DNA of 39,238 nt from Candidatus Alloscybalousia intestinigallinarum (GTDB lineage Bacteria; Bacillota_I; Bacilli_A; RF39; UBA660): contig DVKF01000037.1 in NCBI GenBank assembly GCA_018716115.1, positions 1 to 39,238 of the forward strand. Reading direction: 5' to 3'. How positions within the stretch are numbered: position 1 is the first letter of the stretch; each line of letters starts with the position of its first letter. The notes under the pieces are model-generated. The model made no database searches. It was not told the DNA's origin and saw only the letters and a list, made by a program, of their open reading frames with translations. Below, piece by piece: positions 13,340-25,203 of the stretch. Made by a program: the position numbers and the translations under genes.

Positions 13340-13367
13340 AACGTCTTCACTAATGGAGACGTTTTTT
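13339..13367. terminator. Shared terminator of def and the DGR operon
   Basis: Stem AAACGTCT/AGACGTTT with a 10-nt loop, T run on the plus strand. It contains the stop codon of the reverse transcriptase on the minus strand. Confidence 0.8.
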
Positions 13368-14474
13368 CTTAAACTCATATAAAAATCCTCTACTATCAGC
13401 AGGCAACAAATAGCCAAAATAATTTTGATGCAACATATCGTATTGATCTTCATTAGCGGTTTTCCTCAATCGATGTAAAATCCTTTTCTTCGTATTAGAA
13501 AGCAACAATATGTATAATCTTTTCTTTCGTAACACAAAGCGATAACCTAAAAAAGGAAAGCCTTGATTAGTTACTTCATAAATCTGTGTTTTTTCATTTA
13601 AAGATAATCGTAAATCATGCACCTGCTTTTCTATTTCATGTAAACATTTTTTTAAATAATTAGAATCATAATGAATCAAAATCAAATCATCCATATAACG
13701 AATATAGCACTGAACACCAAGCTTTTCTTTAATATAATGATCTAAATCATTCAAATAAAAAATAGCCAAAATCTGACTAGTCATATTTCCAATTGGTAGA
13801 CCCTTACCTTTCTCATAAAAAGGAATCTTAGCTAATCTAGCTAAATGTTCTATCTTTTCTCGCTCATTGATATTTGAATGATAAATATATTGTTTTCGTC
13901 TTTTAATAACATTCGCTAATTTCTGATTAACATAATCTAAATTTGTACTATCGATAATTGTTTTAACTAATCTAAACACCTCTTCATCCATAATCAAATG
14001 CGACAACTTAGAAAGTAAAATTTCATGATCAATCGAATAAAAATACTTATGAATATCACACTTTAACACATAAATATGTTTATGGTTTTCCTTTAAATGA
14101 TGAAGATATTTTTTCACATAAAACAAGGCAGCCTTAGATCCCTTACCATCTCTAGTTGCGACATTCATATCAATTAATTTAGGCTCAATTAAAGGAAATA
14201 AACAATAACGACTAACTAAGTGATTAATAATTTTATCAGTCATACTTTCGCTCATAATTACCCTACTTTTTGGACGATGGATTAAAAATATATTATACTT
14301 ACCATGTACATAGGCACGTTCTTGTAGTATGGTTTTAATCCCAATTAAATTCGCAGTTAAAAACATTTCATAAGCAAAAATTTTATCTTTATGACGACTA
14401 TTATTTTTAATTGAAAAAAACACTTCTCGTAGTCGATCTAAGTCTAGTAAAGTTGAATACTCAAGTTGCTTCAT
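13350..14474 (-). CDS. DGR reverse transcriptase
   Basis: The 374-aa group-II-intron-like reverse transcriptase copies the template RNA into cDNA with errors at adenines. Fingers and palm motifs are in order: YVLKCDIHKYF with the first catalytic Asp (about 140), GLPIGNMTSQ (about 225-234) and YIRYMDDLILI with the catalytic Asp pair (about 260-262), then FPFLGYRF and a thumb-like tail. The IGNxTSQ form of motif 4, in place of the QGxxxSP of introns and retroviruses, is diagnostic for DGR enzymes. There is no maturase or endonuclease domain. The ATG overlaps the Avd-like gene by 14 bp, so the two are translationally coupled. The reading frame is intact and all catalytic residues are present, so the element is probably active. 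Confidence 0.95.
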   Translation of the reverse strand: MKQLEYSTLLDLDRLREVFFSIKNNSRHKDKIFAYEMFLTANLIGIKTILQERAYVHGKYNIFLIHRPKSRVIMSESMTDKIINHLVSRYCLFPLIEPKLIDMNVATRDGKGSKAALFYVKKYLHHLKENHKHIYVLKCDIHKYFYSIDHEILLSKLSHLIMDEEVFRLVKTIIDSTNLDYVNQKLANVIKRRKQYIYHSNINEREKIEHLARLAKIPFYEKGKGLPIGNMTSQILAIFYLNDLDHYIKEKLGVQCYIRYMDDLILIHYDSNYLKKCLHEIEKQVHDLRLSLNEKTQIYEVTNQGFPFLGYRFVLRKKRLYILLLSNTKKRILHRLRKTANEDQYDMLHQNYFGYLLPADSRGFLYEFKKKRLH

Positions 14475-14808
14475 TACTCTTCACCAATCCATAAGCCATT
14501 TTTCTAATCTCAATAATATTTCTTCCTAATACTTCTACCTGCTTCTTAGTAATAATTTTTAGTTCGTAACTCATATTGGTATAAAAATCTATCATCGCTA
14601 ATTTAACTATAAAATCCTTTAAATACTTTTCTTTTACTCGAATTACTTGATTTATACTATAGGAATAAATATATTCTACTAATTCATACAATGTTCTTTG
14701 AATATTTTGTTTCAATACAATTTCTTTACCGGGATAATTCACTAATAATTTATGATAATAATGAATTAATCGCTCACACTTCGATAAAATTTTAAAATTA
14801 TAATTCAT
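14461..14808 (-). CDS. avd: Avd-like accessory variability determinant
   Basis: The 115-aa, basic, all-helical protein sits directly upstream of the reverse transcriptase, where Avd proteins are found. Its pattern (YYHKLLVNYPGKEIVLKQNI, L-x-E-L-V-E-Y-I-Y, IIEIRKMAYGLVKS) resembles the four-helix bundle Avd family, whose pentamer binds the reverse transcriptase and template RNA and is needed for cDNA synthesis. The ATG lies inside the end of the MutS-like gene (11-bp overlap) with AAGGAG 7 bp upstream. The protein lacks the Trp seen in many Avd tails, so homology rests on size, helices, charge and position. Confidence 0.8.
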   Translation of the reverse strand: MNYNFKILSKCERLIHYYHKLLVNYPGKEIVLKQNIQRTLYELVEYIYSYSINQVIRVKEKYLKDFIVKLAMIDFYTNMSYELKIITKKQVEVLGRNIIEIRKMAYGLVKSNEAT

Positions 14809-15205
14809 CTAAAAACTCCTTAATTTTTATATAATTAGTAGAATCGGAAGTAAGTAAAAATTGGATTCTATCTATTAACATTTGATTCATGGATTCTTGA
14901 AACTCTAATTTTTTAATTCTTTGAAAATAACAATAATAACAATTCTCCTGACTTTGATAAAGATCAATTTCCTCATCAGAAGAAAAAATCACATAATTAA
15001 GTCTCTCATCTTTTAATCTAGAATATACTTTTTCCAAATTTTGACGGGGAAAGCCAACTTTTCCCTTCAGTAATTGATAGGAAAAAAGATGATGGAGAAG
15101 GAGCGCATCATCGTCATATGTAATATAAAAATTACCGGATCGTAATAAAATCAAAGAATCAGGGTATTGTCTTTTTAATTCTCGATATTTATCTTTTATT
15201 TTCAT
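14798..15205 (-). CDS. MutS-domain-I-like DGR accessory protein
   Basis: The 135-aa protein matches the N-terminal mismatch-recognition domain of MutS: YRELKRQYPDSLILLRSGNF parallels YLxLKxQxPDxLLFYRMGDF, then YDDDALLLHHLF parallels YEDAxxxSxxLD. The Phe of the mismatch-wedge motif is kept (GNFY) but the following Glu is Ile. No MutS ATPase, clamp or lever domain exists. MutS-like accessory ORFs have been reported beside some other DGRs; their job is not established. Acting on mismatched cDNA-target heteroduplexes is inference. I chose the ATG at 15205, which has AGGAG 7 bp upstream; 13 extra codons upstream run through a hairpin and are unlikely to be translated. Confidence 0.82.
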   Translation of the reverse strand: MKIKDKYRELKRQYPDSLILLRSGNFYITYDDDALLLHHLFSYQLLKGKVGFPRQNLEKVYSRLKDERLNYVIFSSDEEIDLYQSQENCYYCYFQRIKKLEFQESMNQMLIDRIQFLLTSDSTNYIKIKEFLDEL

Positions 15206-15222
15206 AATTATACTCCTATTAG

Positions 15223-15246
15223 TTATGGCAGATATTTCTGCCATAA
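15223..15246 (-). promoter_or_regulatory. Perfect hairpin before the MutS-like gene
   Basis: A 10-bp perfect stem (TTATGGCAGA with TCTGCCATAA) and 4-nt loop lie 5 bp upstream of the AGGAG of the accessory gene. It lacks a T run, so it is not a terminator. It could mark the 3' end or a processing point of the template RNA, or modulate translation. Confidence 0.55.
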
Positions 15247-15272
15247 GCGATATAGCGCTAGTAATTAAAAGT

Positions 15273-15293
15273 AAATTACGTCTAATTACGTCT
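15273..15293. repeat. Short tandem repeat in the DGR spacer
   Basis: AATTACGTCT occurs twice head to tail in the spacer between the template repeat and the accessory gene. Confidence 0.5.
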
Positions 15294-15327
15294 ATATCAT
15301 ATTTTTAGAAATAGAAAACTATTTCAA

Positions 15328-15602
15328 GGGCTAATCTTGTTTCCAATCTATTAGTAGATCATAATTTCTGCTAAAAAAATTATTACTTCCTCTCACTATA
15401 AACCGTAATCTATAGCACGCGGTTCATTAGTATTTTTGTTACACTAATTGTAGTAGGAATCTGGGCGGACGCCGTTCGACGTCGTGACCCAATTCGCATT
15501 CAAGTTTCCAGTCGAATTGACGTTCCAGGCGTTCGCGTTCGCATTAGACGAATTGAAGTTATACGGCGACCGAAGAACAGTCCCAAAATAGGAGATTAGC
15601 CC
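15328..15602 (-). ncRNA. Predicted template-RNA domain closed by a 10-bp stem
   Basis: On the minus strand GGGCTAATCT (15602-15593) before TR can pair perfectly with AGATTAGCCC (15337-15328) after TR, enclosing TR and about 120 nt of spacer. In the studied Bordetella phage DGR, spacer RNA beyond TR binds the reverse transcriptase-Avd complex and primes cDNA. The equivalent role here is inference. Confidence 0.5.
15461..15570 (-). ncRNA. DGR template repeat (TR)
   Basis: This 110-bp template aligns without gaps to the variable repeat at 15729-15838. There are 12 differences, all where the template has A on the minus (coding) strand. It is GC-rich (about 54%) in a roughly 30% GC region. In the target frame it holds 11 Asn codons (AAC/AAT); no codon in it can become a stop by changing adenines. 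It is transcribed with the operon and serves as RNA template; an open frame of 60 codons across it (15444-15626) is a by-product of its resemblance to VR. Identity ends abruptly on both sides. Confidence 0.95.
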
Positions 15603-15605
15603 CGC

Positions 15606-15635
15606 TAAGCTAAAATGATGAGTCATTTTAGCTTA
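15606..15635 (-). promoter_or_regulatory. 13-bp perfect hairpin between target gene and TR
   Basis: TAAGCTAAAATGA pairs perfectly with TCATTTTAGCTTA over a 4-nt loop, 13 bp past the target stop codon and 93 bp past VR. No T run follows on the minus strand, so read-through into TR is expected. DGR targets often have a hairpin or cruciform just past VR that aids retrohoming; this one is further away and longer than the known examples. A processing signal is the alternative. Confidence 0.6.
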
Positions 15636-15648
15636 ATTCCTTCCTTTT

Positions 15649-17376
15649 TTAAGAAAGAGCTACCATATATGGATTAACCTTCGTTCCATCTCCCCCGGTA
15701 ATCAAGATATCAGCGCTCAGATTGACGACTGGGCGGACGCCGTACGACGCCGAGACCCAATACGCATGCAAGCTTCCAGTCGAATTGACGTGCCAGGCGT
15801 GCGCGGACGCATTAGACGAAGTGAAGTAATACGGCGACATTGTCCAATAAATTTGACCGGTATATAAATAGTATTCCGGATTAGCCGATAGATAAACACC
15901 ACCCGCAAAAGCTGCTTCATCAACCGTAATTAATCCAACTGGATAAGTAAGCTTTCCATTTCCTTTTTCTGGACTCACTGTAAATTTATCACTATCTTGA
16001 CTACAAGATAAACTGGGTTGCTTCTGATTTAACACTCGGTAGTACGGACTAAAAATCGTCGTTTTAGAAAACGAAAAGCCATCTCCAGAGGTAAAAGTCC
16101 GATCATTACAGAATACTTCATCACTTAAATATGATGCATAACTCACTCCATTACTATCCTGTTTATTTTGAATGTTCGTTAGATACCAACTATCAATTTT
16201 TCCCTTAATGGTTGAATCACTAGTATTATTTAAAAGGGAAGGATAATTGACTGAAGAATAAGTAATATAATTTACTTTCGCACTAGTTGGACTATTATAG
16301 CCCTTTAATCGCAATAAAAAGTCACAGGTTCCGTTTTCGGCAGTGCTTAAGCAAGTATAAGGATAACTTGCTATCGCCTCTTGATTCGCACTCTCCCACG
16401 TACCAGATATTTTATTTCCATTTAAGGTAAATTTCCTCGTTTCTTCATTAAAACTATAAGAATCACTATAATAATAAACGTTATTATCAGAAATATTGAT
16501 ATAATTTACTTGGGTCGTATCCTCTTTCAACTGAAAATTCTCATGATATTTATAACCAACATAAGTAGGATCAAAGTATTTCGAATTATATTGACTAGTT
16601 CCAATCGAAGTTGCACTTCCTGTTGCATTAGTCGAAGTACCAGAATAAATTAAGCGAATACTTCCATTTCCATTTATTCTTACTATTCGCCAAATAAAAC
16701 CGGCAAAAGATAAATAATTATTCTCTACTGCGCCCCGATAAAAATAAGATGTTCCATCATCATCGTTCGTTGCGTATAATCCAATTTCTGAATCCAATGA
16801 TTCCAAAACTTTATAAGTATAACGAATAGCTTTAGTTACTTTATAGGTTGTCGTTGTTCCAGATTGTACTTTTTCATATGCTTTTATTTGATACATTGTC
16901 GTACAATCTCTATAGGTACCAGTCGTTGAACCACAAGTATAATAATTGATATATTCATCACTTAAGTCATTATTATTATAATCGGTTAAAGTAAACATAC
17001 CGGTTGTAGAATTAAAAGTATAGCTTTTTCCTAATGTAAAATGAGCGGTTGTAGAAATAACCCCGTTTGTAGTATTAGACACTTCAGTAGTAGTCTCTTG
17101 GAAAGTAATTGTTGGCGCAGTTTGATTAGTGGTAGCATTCCCCTTAGATTCAATATAAGTCTTAGCTTCTTCAGGAGAAGATGCATAATTTTCCATCACC
17201 AACATACAATCACTCAATTTGGTAATCCCATTTTTTATACAGTAATTATCTTCTGGAACTACAATGGATACTGGAAAACTACTTTCCGTAGTAAAATAAG
17301 CAGTAGAAATATTAAAGGATAAGAGTACTCCCAAAAAAATAAGAACCAAACCAAAAAAAATCAATTTTTTTACCAT
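15649..17376 (-). CDS. DGR target: exported variable surface protein
   Basis: The 575-aa protein has a signal/anchor helix at residues 4-26 followed by AYFTTES, a SipW/TasA-type processing context. The body is Thr/Ser/Asn/Tyr-rich with paired Cys (for example YTCGSTTGTYRDC). The C-terminal domain carries the variable repeat at about residues 513-549 (SPYYFTSSNASAHAWHV ... YGVRP) and ends GGDGTKVNPYMVAL, a pattern of Firmicute surface proteins probably folding like the C-type-lectin/FGE scaffold used by DGR targets; the fold is inference. Eleven VR residues differ from the template: mostly Asn to Tyr, His, Ser or Thr. The ligand is unknown. RBS GGAGGAAG precedes the ATG. It lies 24 bp downstream of the small TasA-like gene and heads the DGR operon with it. 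Confidence 0.92.
   Translation of the reverse strand: MVKKLIFFGLVLIFLGVLLSFNISTAYFTTESSFPVSIVVPEDNYCIKNGITKLSDCMLVMENYASSPEEAKTYIESKGNATTNQTAPTITFQETTTEVSNTTNGVISTTAHFTLGKSYTFNSTTGMFTLTDYNNNDLSDEYINYYTCGSTTGTYRDCTTMYQIKAYEKVQSGTTTTYKVTKAIRYTYKVLESLDSEIGLYATNDDDGTSYFYRGAVENNYLSFAGFIWRIVRINGNGSIRLIYSGTSTNATGSATSIGTSQYNSKYFDPTYVGYKYHENFQLKEDTTQVNYINISDNNVYYYSDSYSFNEETRKFTLNGNKISGTWESANQEAIASYPYTCLSTAENGTCDFLLRLKGYNSPTSAKVNYITYSSVNYPSLLNNTSDSTIKGKIDSWYLTNIQNKQDSNGVSYASYLSDEVFCNDRTFTSGDGFSFSKTTIFSPYYRVLNQKQPSLSCSQDSDKFTVSPEKGNGKLTYPVGLITVDEAAFAGGVYLSANPEYYLYTGQIYWTMSPYYFTSSNASAHAWHVNSTGSLHAYWVSASYGVRPVVNLSADILITGGDGTKVNPYMVALS
15729..15838 (-). repeat. DGR variable repeat (VR)
   Basis: 110-bp copy of TR inside the target gene. 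Relative to TR the coding strand shows only substitutions of A (to T, C or G): 12 of 28 template adenines changed, 0 of 82 other bases. The changes hit 11 codons, nine of them Asn codons in the template and two ACG. The 3' end is GC-rich and invariant apart from one A (ACGGCGTCCGCCCAG), as expected of an initiation-of-homing region. It ends 26 codons before the stop codon. Confidence 0.95.
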
Positions 17377-17400
17377 ATACTAGCTTCCTCCTATTTCCCA

Positions 17401-17913
17401 TTAAGCTTGAACTGCCTCAAGATATACTTTGGCGTTCACTGTTTCTTTTAAACCACTAGGAACTTTAACGTACACTTTAAATTCCCTAGTCGCTTCACTC
17501 GTATCAAAAGTATATTCTAAACTAGTAATACTAGATAAATATTCCCCAGTAGAACTACTTGTATTTCCTTCTGAATCAATATAATAAAAGAGCCCATTCG
17601 AACCTTCTTCATTTTGAATAGTTAACTGATACTTAACAGGCACACCAGTAACAGCATTGTCTTTCGTATTCGTTACTTTAATTCGAAAATAAGCAATGTT
17701 ATTCTCTACATAATTAGGATTAGAATCTACTGTTACTTCACAAATAACTTCCCCTGTTGCCATACCTTGTACAACAGATTGACTAGATGATGTAAAATAA
17801 GCATATGACTCTTTTAAAATGAATACAATCAAAAACAAAATAAAACAGGCAATCATTACACTTTTTATTCGCCATCTATCCTGCTTAAACAATAACGCTA
17901 AACCTCTTTTCAT
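17401..17913 (-). CDS. TasA/camelysin-like exported protein, DGR operon
   Basis: The 170-aa protein has a basic start, one strong helix (residues 18-34) and then ESYAYFTSSSQS, the cleavage context typical of SipW-dependent TasA/camelysin-type proteins. The remaining roughly 130 residues are beta-rich (FRIKVTNTKDNAVTGVPVKY, REFKVYVKVPSGL). The next gene, the DGR target, has the matching AYFTTES context, so both are probably secreted by one route; a fibre or cell-surface scaffold for the variable protein is inference. No SipW peptidase gene is in the window. RBS AAGGAGG is 8 bp upstream of the ATG. It is the first gene of the operon. Confidence 0.72.
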   Translation of the reverse strand: MKRGLALLFKQDRWRIKSVMIACFILFLIVFILKESYAYFTSSSQSVVQGMATGEVICEVTVDSNPNYVENNIAYFRIKVTNTKDNAVTGVPVKYQLTIQNEEGSNGLFYYIDSEGNTSSSTGEYLSSITSLEYTFDTSEATREFKVYVKVPSGLKETVNAKVYLEAVQA

Positions 17914-18168
17914 CCCAATAACCTCCTTTATCGTTTCATTTTTCTAATTATTAATGGAAAAAACAGAAAGTATACATACTTTAAATAAAATTTGAAATAT
18001 TAATAATAGAACGTTTCAAAATAGAGAAAAAGAATTCTCATTTTCATAAAGTTTAATACTTTGCGAAATAGAATTTACTTAAAATTTTAGTGAAAAATAG
18101 CAGTTAAGTACATATCTTTCTATTTTTCCTACCTTCATATTAGCATATTTTGAAACTTTAATCTACTA
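17914..18168. other. Upstream region of the DGR operon
   Basis: This is where the operon promoter should lie. A weak candidate on the minus strand is TATACT (17974-17969) with TTTCAA 17 bp upstream. The left recombinase-like site is at 18043-18067, so sequence beyond it could be exchanged by recombination. No gene is seen. Confidence 0.35.
18043..18067. repeat. Recombinase core-like site, left
   Basis: TTCATAAAGT, 5-nt spacer TTAAT, then ACTTTGCGAA. The inner arms AAAGT/ACTTT are perfect inverted repeats, extended by TTC...GAA, as in tyrosine-recombinase core sites. It pairs with 21016-21040 on the other side of the integrase gene. Confidence 0.6.
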
Positions 18169-18176
18169 TTTTTTGA

Positions 18177-19760
18177 TTTGAGTTCCGGTATTTTACAGAA
18201 AATTTATATAAGGTCATAATAATTTTTAAGGTTTTGATAAAATTTTTCAAAATCTTATTTTAAAATTTCGAATTTATCCATGACAATATAGAACATCGTC
18301 AAAATGTTCTTTTTTCTATTATCCAATTAAGTAACCTTTTAGAGTTTTAATTCTAACTGTTTATATTTCTTTCTCTTTTCTATTCTTTGATATCCTTTGA
18401 TTCCTGTATGCACATATTTTAATATCTCACTAATTCCTCTTGATATCTGACTAAACCATACACATACTTTATTCCGTAACGATTTACTTCTTTCTAGTAT
18501 TTTGATTGTTAAAAGTTTTTTGTCCATATCTTCAATCAACATTCCTAAATGTCCCATATGCATCATCAACATTAAATTTAAGTTATTCATCGCTTTTAAT
18601 GTCCTCACTCGCATGTTTTCAAAATCATATTCTTGCTTTTTACTTCTAAAATACTCTTCTACCCTCCATCTATAAAAGTATAACCTTACTACCTTAATTA
18701 CATCTTCCTTACTATGTATATCTCTATTCGTCAGTAAAATCAATGGCCTCTCCTCACTTAATCCATACACAAATACCAATTCATAGTCTTTCTTATTACT
18801 TGGTAAAGTTACTTTAGTGTGGGATACTGATATTTCTACCTTTTCACCCTCAAACCATAATTCCATTTTTACTTTCCCTTTTCTCTTTAGTGCCTCATTA
18901 TATGCATTTTTCTTTCTTCCTTTAAATAGAAATATTCTCTTATCGTTCATTCTTATTACGAAATAGTTTCCACTTTTATCTATATAATCTATTATCTTAT
19001 TATCATCATATCCTCTATCAAATATCATGTTACATTTTCTATTTAGAACACTCATTACAGTATCTATGCTATCTATTGTATATTTATTTTTACTTATAAA
19101 ATTCTTACTCTTACAAGAATAAATTTCACTATATACGCTTATTGGTTGTTTTTCATTTTTCCCTAGTATTACCGCCTCACATACATGATATCCATTTACT
19201 ACTGTTTTATCTGGGTCTGATGCATCTATTATTTGATCTAAGTCTTCAAACTTCTTTCCATATCTTTTTGATATATCGCTATCATCAAATATTGATACTG
19301 CCTCATCAGGAAAATATTTTTTTACTTCATTTAGATAATTTTCTTTAATTACCTTTGCTTCTTCTTTATTTAAAGATTGTAGATTATCGCATAATCTTTC
19401 TATTGTATTTTTTAATTTTATAGTTTCATTTAACGATCTAGAAATTTCAGAAATTAAACAACTTTTACTTTTAGACAGTCCATATTGCATATCACTAATA
19501 AATTTTTTGCCCTGTTTATTTATTCCTTCTGATATTTTTTAGAAAAATTTAGAATTTCTCTTTTAGTTTCATAACAATCCATAGTATAATTAGTCATAGG
19601 AAAGCGCCTCCGTATTTTTTGTTTAGTATTGGTTTTTATGTTCAATTAAATTTTACTAAATTTTGGAGGTTTTTTCCTTATTTTTGTATCAAAAAAGTGA
19701 ATCTGTGGATAACACATTTTCACTTTTTCCTTTTCTCTCTAAATTTTACCGGAACTCAAA
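18177..19760 (-). mobile_element. IS4-type insertion sequence
   Basis: The 1584-bp element has ends TTTGAGTTCCGGTA (18177-18190) and its exact reverse complement (19747-19760), with further partly matching bases inward. It is flanked by an 8-bp direct target duplication TTTTTTGA (18169-18176 and 19761-19768). It encodes one DDE transposase on the minus strand. The 8-bp duplication and Y-x-x-R-W...E-x-x-F-R-x-x-K layout fit an IS4-group family (possibly ISPepr1-like). It sits between the DGR operon and the integrase gene, splitting the latter's upstream region. Confidence 0.9.
18339..19597 (-). CDS. IS4-family DDE transposase, frame split at an A6 run
   Basis: The main frame (18339-19490, 383 aa from an internal Met) has the DDE catalytic set: FDDSDI, MIFDRGYDD and YRWRVEEYFRSKKQE with VVNGYHV and LLTNRD around them. 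The true N-terminus is in another frame: an ATG at 19597 with GGAGG upstream reads MTNYTMDCYETKREILNFSKK, then a -1 shift in the run of six A (19535-19540) gives ISEGINKQGKKFISDMQYGL, the expected start of this family. Full length would be about 420 aa. The shift could be programmed frameshifting, an inactivating deletion or a sequencing error. The slip string TCTAAAAAAT is compatible with slippage. Confidence 0.8.
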
Positions 19761-19843
19761 TTTTTTGACAATTTTAGTGAAAAGATGGGAAAATAGTTGG
19801 AAAATTAATAGTCTAATAAATAGTCAAGAGGAGGAGAAGTTAT
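19761..19843 (+). promoter_or_regulatory. Possible promoter and leader of the integrase gene
   Basis: TTGACA (19765-19770) with GAAAAT 18 bp downstream could drive the integrase. The IS target duplication ends inside this -35, and the duplication has kept it intact. A strong GAGGAGGAGAAG ribosome binding site lies before the integrase ATG. Confidence 0.4.
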
Positions 19844-20956
19844 ATGGCTAGAAAAGGTGAAAGCATATTTTTAAGAAAGGATGGACGTTGGGAGGCTAGA
19901 TATTGTAAAGGTTACGATCATAATCATAAAATTGTTTACGGCTACTTATATGGAAAAAACTATTCCGAGGTAAAAAAGAAAAGAAATGAATTATTATTAA
20001 CAATGCCAACTTTAACTAAGAAAAAAGGAAAAAAAACGTTAAATGACTATATCGATTCATGGTTGTTACAGAAAAGAAACATTTTAAAGGAATCCACTTA
20101 TGCAAGATATGTTTGGGTAATTGATTCTCATATTAGACCATTTTTAGGAAAAATAAGAATTGATGAATTAAAAGAGGAAGATGTTGCTCGATTTATTTAT
20201 CAAAAGAAAAATTATGGGAATCTTTTAACATGTACAAATTTAGGTAGTAAAACATTAAAAGACATTGTCACTTTATTGAAACAATTATTACGATATAGTG
20301 GAATCGACTTGAAAATTGATGTTCCTAAAATTACAAGAAAAAAGATTGAGTTATTTTCTCACCTTGAACAACAACAATTAGAAAATTATTTATCTATGCA
20401 TTTAGATCCTATTCATATAGGAATTTTATTATCTTTATATACCGGTTTACGAATCGGTGAAATTTGTGCATTAAAGTGGAAAGATATTGATCTAGAAAAC
20501 AAAACACTTACGGTTTGCCATACAGTTTTACGGATTAAGGATACCAATAGTAAAGCAACGTCTAAAACAAAATTGCTTATGGCAAGTCCTAAGACAATAT
20601 TTTCTAATCGAGTGATTCCATTACCTTCTTTTTTAGTGACTATTTTAACTGCTTTAAGAATTCCTTCTGATGAGGCTATGTTTTTCTTGACTGCGTCATA
20701 TAGATTTATGGAACCACGTTCTTATTATAATCAATATAAAAGAATTTTAACAAAAGCCAATCTACCACAATATAAGTTTCATACTTTGCGTCACACTTTT
20801 GCGACTAGATGTATAGAACTTGGATTTGATGCGAAAACTTTATGTGAAATATTAGGACATTCCGATATTAAAATTACACTTTCTTTATATGTACATCCAA
20901 GTGATTGTTTAAAAGTTCAACAAATGGAAAAACTGACCTTGTTTCATTATAACTAG
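19844..20956 (+). CDS. Tyrosine recombinase / integrase
   Basis: The 370-aa enzyme has an N-terminal AP2-like arm-binding region (LRKDGRWEARYCKGYD), a SAM-like core-binding domain (about 65-165) and the catalytic domain with all six key residues: Arg in TGLRIGE (about 202), Lys in SPKT (about 249), HTLRHTF (His and Arg, about 312-315), His in LGHSDI, and the Tyr nucleophile in LYVHP (about 348). This architecture is that of Tn916-type and phage integrases, though no excisionase, relaxase or phage gene is nearby. Two core-like 25-bp sites flank the gene. It reads away from the DGR operon. Whether it moves a lost element or rearranges this locus is open. Confidence 0.92.
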   Translation: MARKGESIFLRKDGRWEARYCKGYDHNHKIVYGYLYGKNYSEVKKKRNELLLTMPTLTKKKGKKTLNDYIDSWLLQKRNILKESTYARYVWVIDSHIRPFLGKIRIDELKEEDVARFIYQKKNYGNLLTCTNLGSKTLKDIVTLLKQLLRYSGIDLKIDVPKITRKKIELFSHLEQQQLENYLSMHLDPIHIGILLSLYTGLRIGEICALKWKDIDLENKTLTVCHTVLRIKDTNSKATSKTKLLMASPKTIFSNRVIPLPSFLVTILTALRIPSDEAMFFLTASYRFMEPRSYYNQYKRILTKANLPQYKFHTLRHTFATRCIELGFDAKTLCEILGHSDIKITLSLYVHPSDCLKVQQMEKLTLFHYN

Positions 20957-21015
20957 TCTTATTAAGTGGTCAAAGTTCCCTTTTTTATTGTATCTATTAA
21001 AAATTAATATAAAAA

Positions 21016-21040
21016 TTCATAAAGTATTAAACTTTACGAA
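21016..21040. repeat. Recombinase core-like site, right
   Basis: TTCATAAAGT, 5-nt spacer ATTAA, then ACTTTACGAA. It matches the left site in both arms in direct orientation (21 of 25), while its spacer is the exact reverse complement of the left spacer (22 of 25 in inverted orientation). It lies 59 bp past the integrase stop codon. Confidence 0.6.
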
Positions 21041-21050
21041 AAATTTCACA

Positions 21051-24967: not shown

Positions 24968-25044
24968 GGTCTGTTGGTGAAGTGGCTTAACACACCACCC
25001 TCTCAAGGTGGCATTCACGGGTCCGAATCCCGTACAGATCACCA
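24968..25044 (+). tRNA. tRNA-Glu (anticodon CTC)
   Basis: Full cloverleaf: acceptor GGTCTGT/ACAGATC (one G-T pair), anticodon arm CCACC-CTCTCAA-GGTGG giving CTC (reads GAG), T arm CGGGT...CCCG, encoded CCA. The sequence is close to Firmicute tRNA-Glu but with C rather than T at anticodon position 34. Confidence 0.92.
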
Positions 25045-25110
25045 AATTAGGATTAAGTTTTTTTAACTGGAATATAGAGGATATCGGAAAACCGATATTT
25101 TTTTGTTTAC
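25017..25110. repeat. Direct repeat copy 1: tRNA-Glu 3' end plus terminator
   Basis: From the T arm of tRNA-Glu through CCA, ATTAGGATTAAG, AACTGGAATATAGAGG and the terminator hairpin ATATCGG/CCGATAT (25081-25104). It recurs about 94 bp later with differences confined to homopolymer lengths and a shortened T loop. Confidence 0.85.
25081..25104 (+). terminator. Terminator of tRNA-Glu
   Basis: 7-bp stem ATATCGG/CCGATAT, AAAA loop, seven Ts. A second copy follows at 25174-25196. Confidence 0.85.
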
Positions 25111-25114
25111 TATA

Positions 25115-25203
25115 ACGGGTAGCCCGTACAGATCACCAAATTAGGATTAAGTTTTTTAACTGGAATATAGAGGATATCGGAAAAACCGATATTTTTGTTG
25201 TTT
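25115..25203. repeat. Direct repeat copy 2: truncated tRNA-Glu 3' end plus terminator
   Basis: Starts ACGGGT, skips most of the T loop, then CCCGTACAGATCACCA and the same downstream sequence with the hairpin ATATCGG/CCGATAT (25174-25192) and T run. It lacks the 5' two thirds of the tRNA, so it is not a tRNA gene. Confidence 0.85.

Follow-up and report, generated by a model that had tools for sequence, protein, structure and literature searches.

The window, a stretch of 39,238 nucleotides from Candidatus Alloscybalousia intestinigallinarum (contig DVKF01000037.1), harbors a diversity-generating retroelement (DGR) which we conclude, with a probability of about 95%, to be complete and to have diversified its target gene. 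It is a well-preserved addition to the DGRs of a little-studied group of gut-type Bacilli, where these cassettes occur commonly. DGRs of this kind are already known, and the value of the element lies in its accessory gene MSL. The minus strand is the coding strand of the whole element, which comprises the following features.

13350..14474, minus strand: DGR reverse transcriptase (RT), 374 aa (RVT_1, E 7e-18), with an IGNMTSQ motif and YMDD
14461..14808, minus strand: bAvd-type accessory variability determinant, 115 aa (Pfam bAvd, PF22296, E 1e-11, above the cut-off)
14798..15205, minus strand: MSL, a stand-alone MutS domain I (Pfam MutS_I, PF01624, E 8e-8, above the cut-off)
15336..15460, minus strand: structured spacer directly 3' of the template repeat, ending in ...GGAAACAAG, common to the related loci L060 and L028
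15461..15570, minus strand: template repeat (TR)
15606..15635, minus strand: perfect hairpin of 13 bp with the 4-nt loop CTCA, 3' of the target stop codon
15649..17376, minus strand: target gene, 575 aa, with an N-terminal hydrophobic segment; contains the variable repeat
15729..15838, minus strand: variable repeat (VR), coding for residues 513-549 of the 575-aa target
17401..17913, minus strand: gene for a small protein, upstream of the target gene; the translation has an N-terminal hydrophobic segment

The TR and the VR align over 110 bp without gaps, at exactly the coordinates that an earlier reading of the sequence alone had given. On the minus strand the TR consists of 28 A, 30 C, 29 G and 23 T, and our recount agrees with that sequence-only reading in that all 12 differences between the repeats are located at TR adenines and none at the 82 other bases. 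The chance of such a distribution, which had been put at below one in a million for random placement, was computed as 8.6e-9 (hypergeometric). The adenines are replaced in the VR by T (5), C (5) or G (2), and the 12 substitutions alter 11 codons, none of them synonymously; asparagine codons (AAY) account for 9 of the 11 altered template codons. The GC content of the repeats is 54-60%, compared to 30% in the window. Neither a second TR/VR pair nor a further copy of the repeats was detected in the 1.49 Mb genome assembly.

A claim that the element has worked in this lineage called for a count of VR substitutions by template base between strains, which was carried out on a sister species (G016) with a target that is 84% identical over its full length and is encoded at another locus (C31). 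Indeed, 18 of the 21 sites (out of 110) that differ between the two VRs are located at TR adenines, i.e. 18/28 A sites vs 3/82 non-A sites (Fisher 6e-11), a comparison which assumes a shared TR; the TR of the sister species itself was not found. Among 20 further loci of the family with TR/VR pairs, 303 of 311 differences occur at A, a proportion to be read with the fact that the scan which found these pairs favours A-restricted ones.

The loci L028 (Candidatus Faecimonas gallistercoris) and L029 are nearly identical cassettes in two species. Their VRs differ at 25 of 116 sites, the 153 bases after the VR differ at 2 and the first template repeat (TR1) differs at 2; the share of VR differences located at TR1 adenines (16 of 25) is blurred by the presence of two TRs and by ordinary divergence. 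Both resemble the window in the MSL-bAvd-RT order, the hairpin, the spacer and the target type, with RTs that are about 51% identical to the window RT, and differ from it in carrying two template repeats instead of one. These are arranged in tandem (L028:5022-5385 and L029:6204-6570), and TR1 reads CG in L028 where L029 has AA, the CG matching the VR of L028 itself, as if the VR had been copied back into the TR.

In the order of transcription, the cassette consists of the gene for the small, probably secreted protein, the target with the VR, the hairpin, the TR, the structured spacer, MSL, bAvd and the RT, and the reading frames overlap by 11 bases between MSL and bAvd and by 14 bases between bAvd and the RT. 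The suggestion that the DGR-type RT, the Avd-like gene and the target lie in order and form a complete system is borne out, with RT, bAvd, TR, VR and target all intact. The closest solved structure of the RT by sequence is 8ub7 (E 3e-24), which we take to be the RT of the Bordetella phage BPP-1 DGR, and the match to the PHROG RT reaches E 3e-77. In the RT tree, the protein falls into a clade with other TR/VR-linked RTs and groups with those of L060, L061, L028 and L029. The assignment of bAvd is further consistent with the PHROG family 'Avd protein of DGR' (E 3e-15) and with NCBIfam DivGenRetAVD (E 5e-12, under the cut-off of that model). The product of 17401..17913, judging from its translation, is probably secreted and its gene is perhaps part of one operon with the target; no confident family was obtained among the Pfam and NCBIfam profiles.

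The DGR is located in an insertion, which was delimited as follows.

13367..21050, no strand assigned: lineage-specific insertion of about 7.7 kb with approximate ends, holding the DGR, an IS4-type element and a tyrosine integrase
18176-19761: IS4-type element, with ends taken from a 15-bp terminal inverted repeat ATTTGAGTTCCGGTA and from the IS-free junction in G016
19844-20956: tyrosine integrase

In the window, the DGR insertion separates pdf from a histidine-kinase gene by 7.7 kb, whereas the two genes adjoin each other in the congeners G007, G008, G014 and G015. Of the element, G001 has kept at the same site only the end of the target and that of the RT, and G016 a fragment of the RT together with an inverted fragment of the integrase, lacking the IS (junction at L117). 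The simplest reading of these remains would be a gain in the ancestor of the window species, G001 and G016, followed by decay in two of them. We do not describe the DGR as a prophage element, since neither the RT nor a degenerate TR was matched by any viral contig, and RT relatives in phage records are all less than 60% identical (best among the matches listed, 33%). Elsewhere in the window, at 25029-25184, direct repeats with a spacing of 93-94 bases are 100% identical over 35 and 33 nt.

The fragments which are all that G001 and G016 keep at this site, together with the IS element inside the insertion, are in line with an alternative in which the DGR has a complete sequence but is now inactive, the VR being left frozen from earlier homing. 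We regard this as unlikely, given that RT, bAvd, MSL, TR and target show no interruption and have overlapping frames, and that the TR and the VR differ at no non-A position, from which it follows that ordinary mutations have not accumulated since the last homing. Far less probable still, indeed practically negligible, is that the repeats arose by ordinary duplication in a surface-protein family and then diverged under selection, a reading for which the three further copies of the C-terminal domain of this multi-copy target family in the genome might speak, but which conflicts with the strict adenine restriction (P 9e-9), the RT and bAvd adjoining the repeats, the lack of a DNA match between the other domain copies and the TR, and the sister-species VR (18/21 at TR adenines). 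Elsewhere in the family, some DGRs look decayed, since the avd gene of L029 (7155-7520) has TGA, a nonsense codon, where L028 has CGA, and the RT of G016 (L068:699-1643) is interrupted by a TAG and a frame change.

The target is probably a secreted or anchored surface protein. Its structure model gave no significant Foldseek match; the top match by VIA-align is the N-terminal part of the Thomasclavelia ramosa IgA peptidase (Z 13.7). For the C-terminal domain, VIA-align returned the Lcl C-terminal domain (Z 6.1) and the CD23 lectin (Z 4.3), which are middling Z scores (Foldseek alone was not significant), so that the modelled domain may be C-type-lectin-like. The target is likely to be used for variable binding at the cell surface. 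Three paralogues of the C-terminal domain are encoded in the same genome (C12:42547-43119, C9:13841-14416 and C37:1059-1679; L167, L168 and L169), none of which shows DNA-level similarity to the TR. Matches to the domain number 12 in G007 and 18 in G045, and G007 has no RT match. The target residues ~110-180 (YTFN..TGMFTL) and ~300-372 (YSFN..TRKFTL) form similar-looking modules, followed by YYTC/YPYTC, and the second of these modules is missing from the paralogues in the same genome.

The DGR of Bordetella phage BPP-1 (bRT, Avd, mtd) resembles the window element in the A-restricted TR-to-VR differences, in Avd and the related RT, in a possibly lectin-like target and in a hairpin downstream of the VR. 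In contrast to BPP-1, the window DGR is located on a bacterial chromosome and not in a phage, and it has MSL in addition. A further difference concerns the hairpin, which in phage DGRs (the hairpin/cruciform type of BPP-1) lies at a distance of 4-34 bp from the VR, with a 4-nt GRNA loop (PMC3240598), whereas the CTCA-loop hairpin of the window lies 93 bp beyond the VR and thus departs from that type in both respects. Its function may nevertheless be like that of the BPP-1 hairpin. Perfect hairpins of 11-15 bp with a 4-nt loop were found after the stop codon at 9 of 19 TR/VR loci, compared to 0.07 expected (the nine include two near-copies), and their stems differ in sequence among loci while the structure is kept. 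A function as a terminator was discarded, as there is no T-tract on the coding strand and a terminator scan returned no match.

Other relatives have a stem of different sequence flush with the TR end, and in 8 relatives the 8-nt segment directly 3' of the TR pairs (7 or 8 of 8 positions) with a segment that precedes a conserved ACAA. For spacer arms from nine loci, which were chosen by eye, pairing within the own locus beats cross-locus pairing in 66 of 72 cells, with a mean of 49 after shuffling and none of 5000 shuffles as high. The spacer stem is longer and branched in the window and its nearest relatives. No Rfam family fits the TR or the spacer; two sub-threshold eukaryotic matches were attributed to chance.

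Taken as a working model, the complex of RT and bAvd would copy the TR-spacer RNA into cDNA with mutations restricted to positions opposite adenines, and this cDNA would take the place of the homologous VR in the final section of the possibly lectin-like surface protein, thereby altering binding residues, mostly at Asn codons. The hairpin might mark the target as in BPP-1, the spacer could serve cDNA synthesis, and MSL might act on the mutated cDNA-VR heteroduplex, which it would either shield from MutS or help to hold.

MSL comprises only domain I of MutS and is devoid of the connector, core, clamp and ATPase domains. The earlier sequence-only reading had named neither the minus-strand location of the element nor the MutS-domain-I identity of this accessory gene. 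Its structure model has a pLDDT of 94.4, and the best Foldseek matches are MutS/Msh proteins, including domain I of MutS and Msh3. In MutS, the wedge Phe-Tyr of the G-x-F-Y-E motif stacks on the mispaired base and the Glu helps to read mismatches. Among 37 MSLs, the Phe is present in 36 and the Tyr in 34, and the Glu is found in 3. The loss of the Glu need not abolish binding, since MutS with an altered Glu was still crystallised on a G-T mismatch according to the entry titles of 1wbb, 1wbd and 1wb9. The host itself encodes a MutS frame of 853 codons with the full FYE and an open MutL frame.

Of 386 genomes of the family, 109 gave MSL-like matches, and 13 RTs in the tree carry MSL fused to their C-terminus. 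The fusion may have arisen once, since the 13 fused RTs all belong to a single group of 15 with support of 100/99; the window RT is located outside this group. That MSL (= PF01624) is a known DGR accessory is stated in PMC10053308, citing Wu et al. 2018, and this one sentence was the only mention of it in the accessible text of the literature searched, where we found no experiment on its role. Nor did these accessible parts contain a description of the wedge/Glu pattern or of the RT-MSL fusions, with the work of Wu et al. 2018 represented through the citing paper.

We suggest that MSL may protect the mutated heteroduplex against mismatch repair or assist the RT complex in holding it. There are roughly even odds that it binds nucleic acids as a subunit of the RT complex, contacting TR RNA or cDNA, and is unrelated to mismatch repair, which would fit the fusion to the RT, the frame overlap with bAvd and the loss of the Glu that helps MutS to read mismatches, but which leaves the near-invariant retention of the Phe-Tyr wedge unaccounted for. 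Only tentatively do we propose that MSL is a local antagonist of mismatch repair, which would cover the A-mutated cDNA-VR heteroduplex and keep MutS-MutL from undoing the mutations. A link to mismatch repair would be reasonable, because mutS was deleted in a recent reconstitution of a DGR in E. coli to help retain the DGR substitutions (PMC12875486). Should a stripped-down MutS domain indeed protect programmed mutations, this would account for DGR function in a host whose mutS and mutL are intact; the fusions of RT and MSL represent ready single-chain constructs for testing the role of MSL.

The MSL reading frame is open upstream to an ATG at 15244, which would yield a protein of 148 aa, compared to 135 aa from the start at 15205. 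The latter is probably the likelier start, because AGGAG is located 7 nt upstream of that ATG and relatives start there. A 10-bp perfect hairpin surrounds the upstream ATG (15223-15246), and a 10-bp hairpin is also located near the MSL start of L060 (7953-7976).
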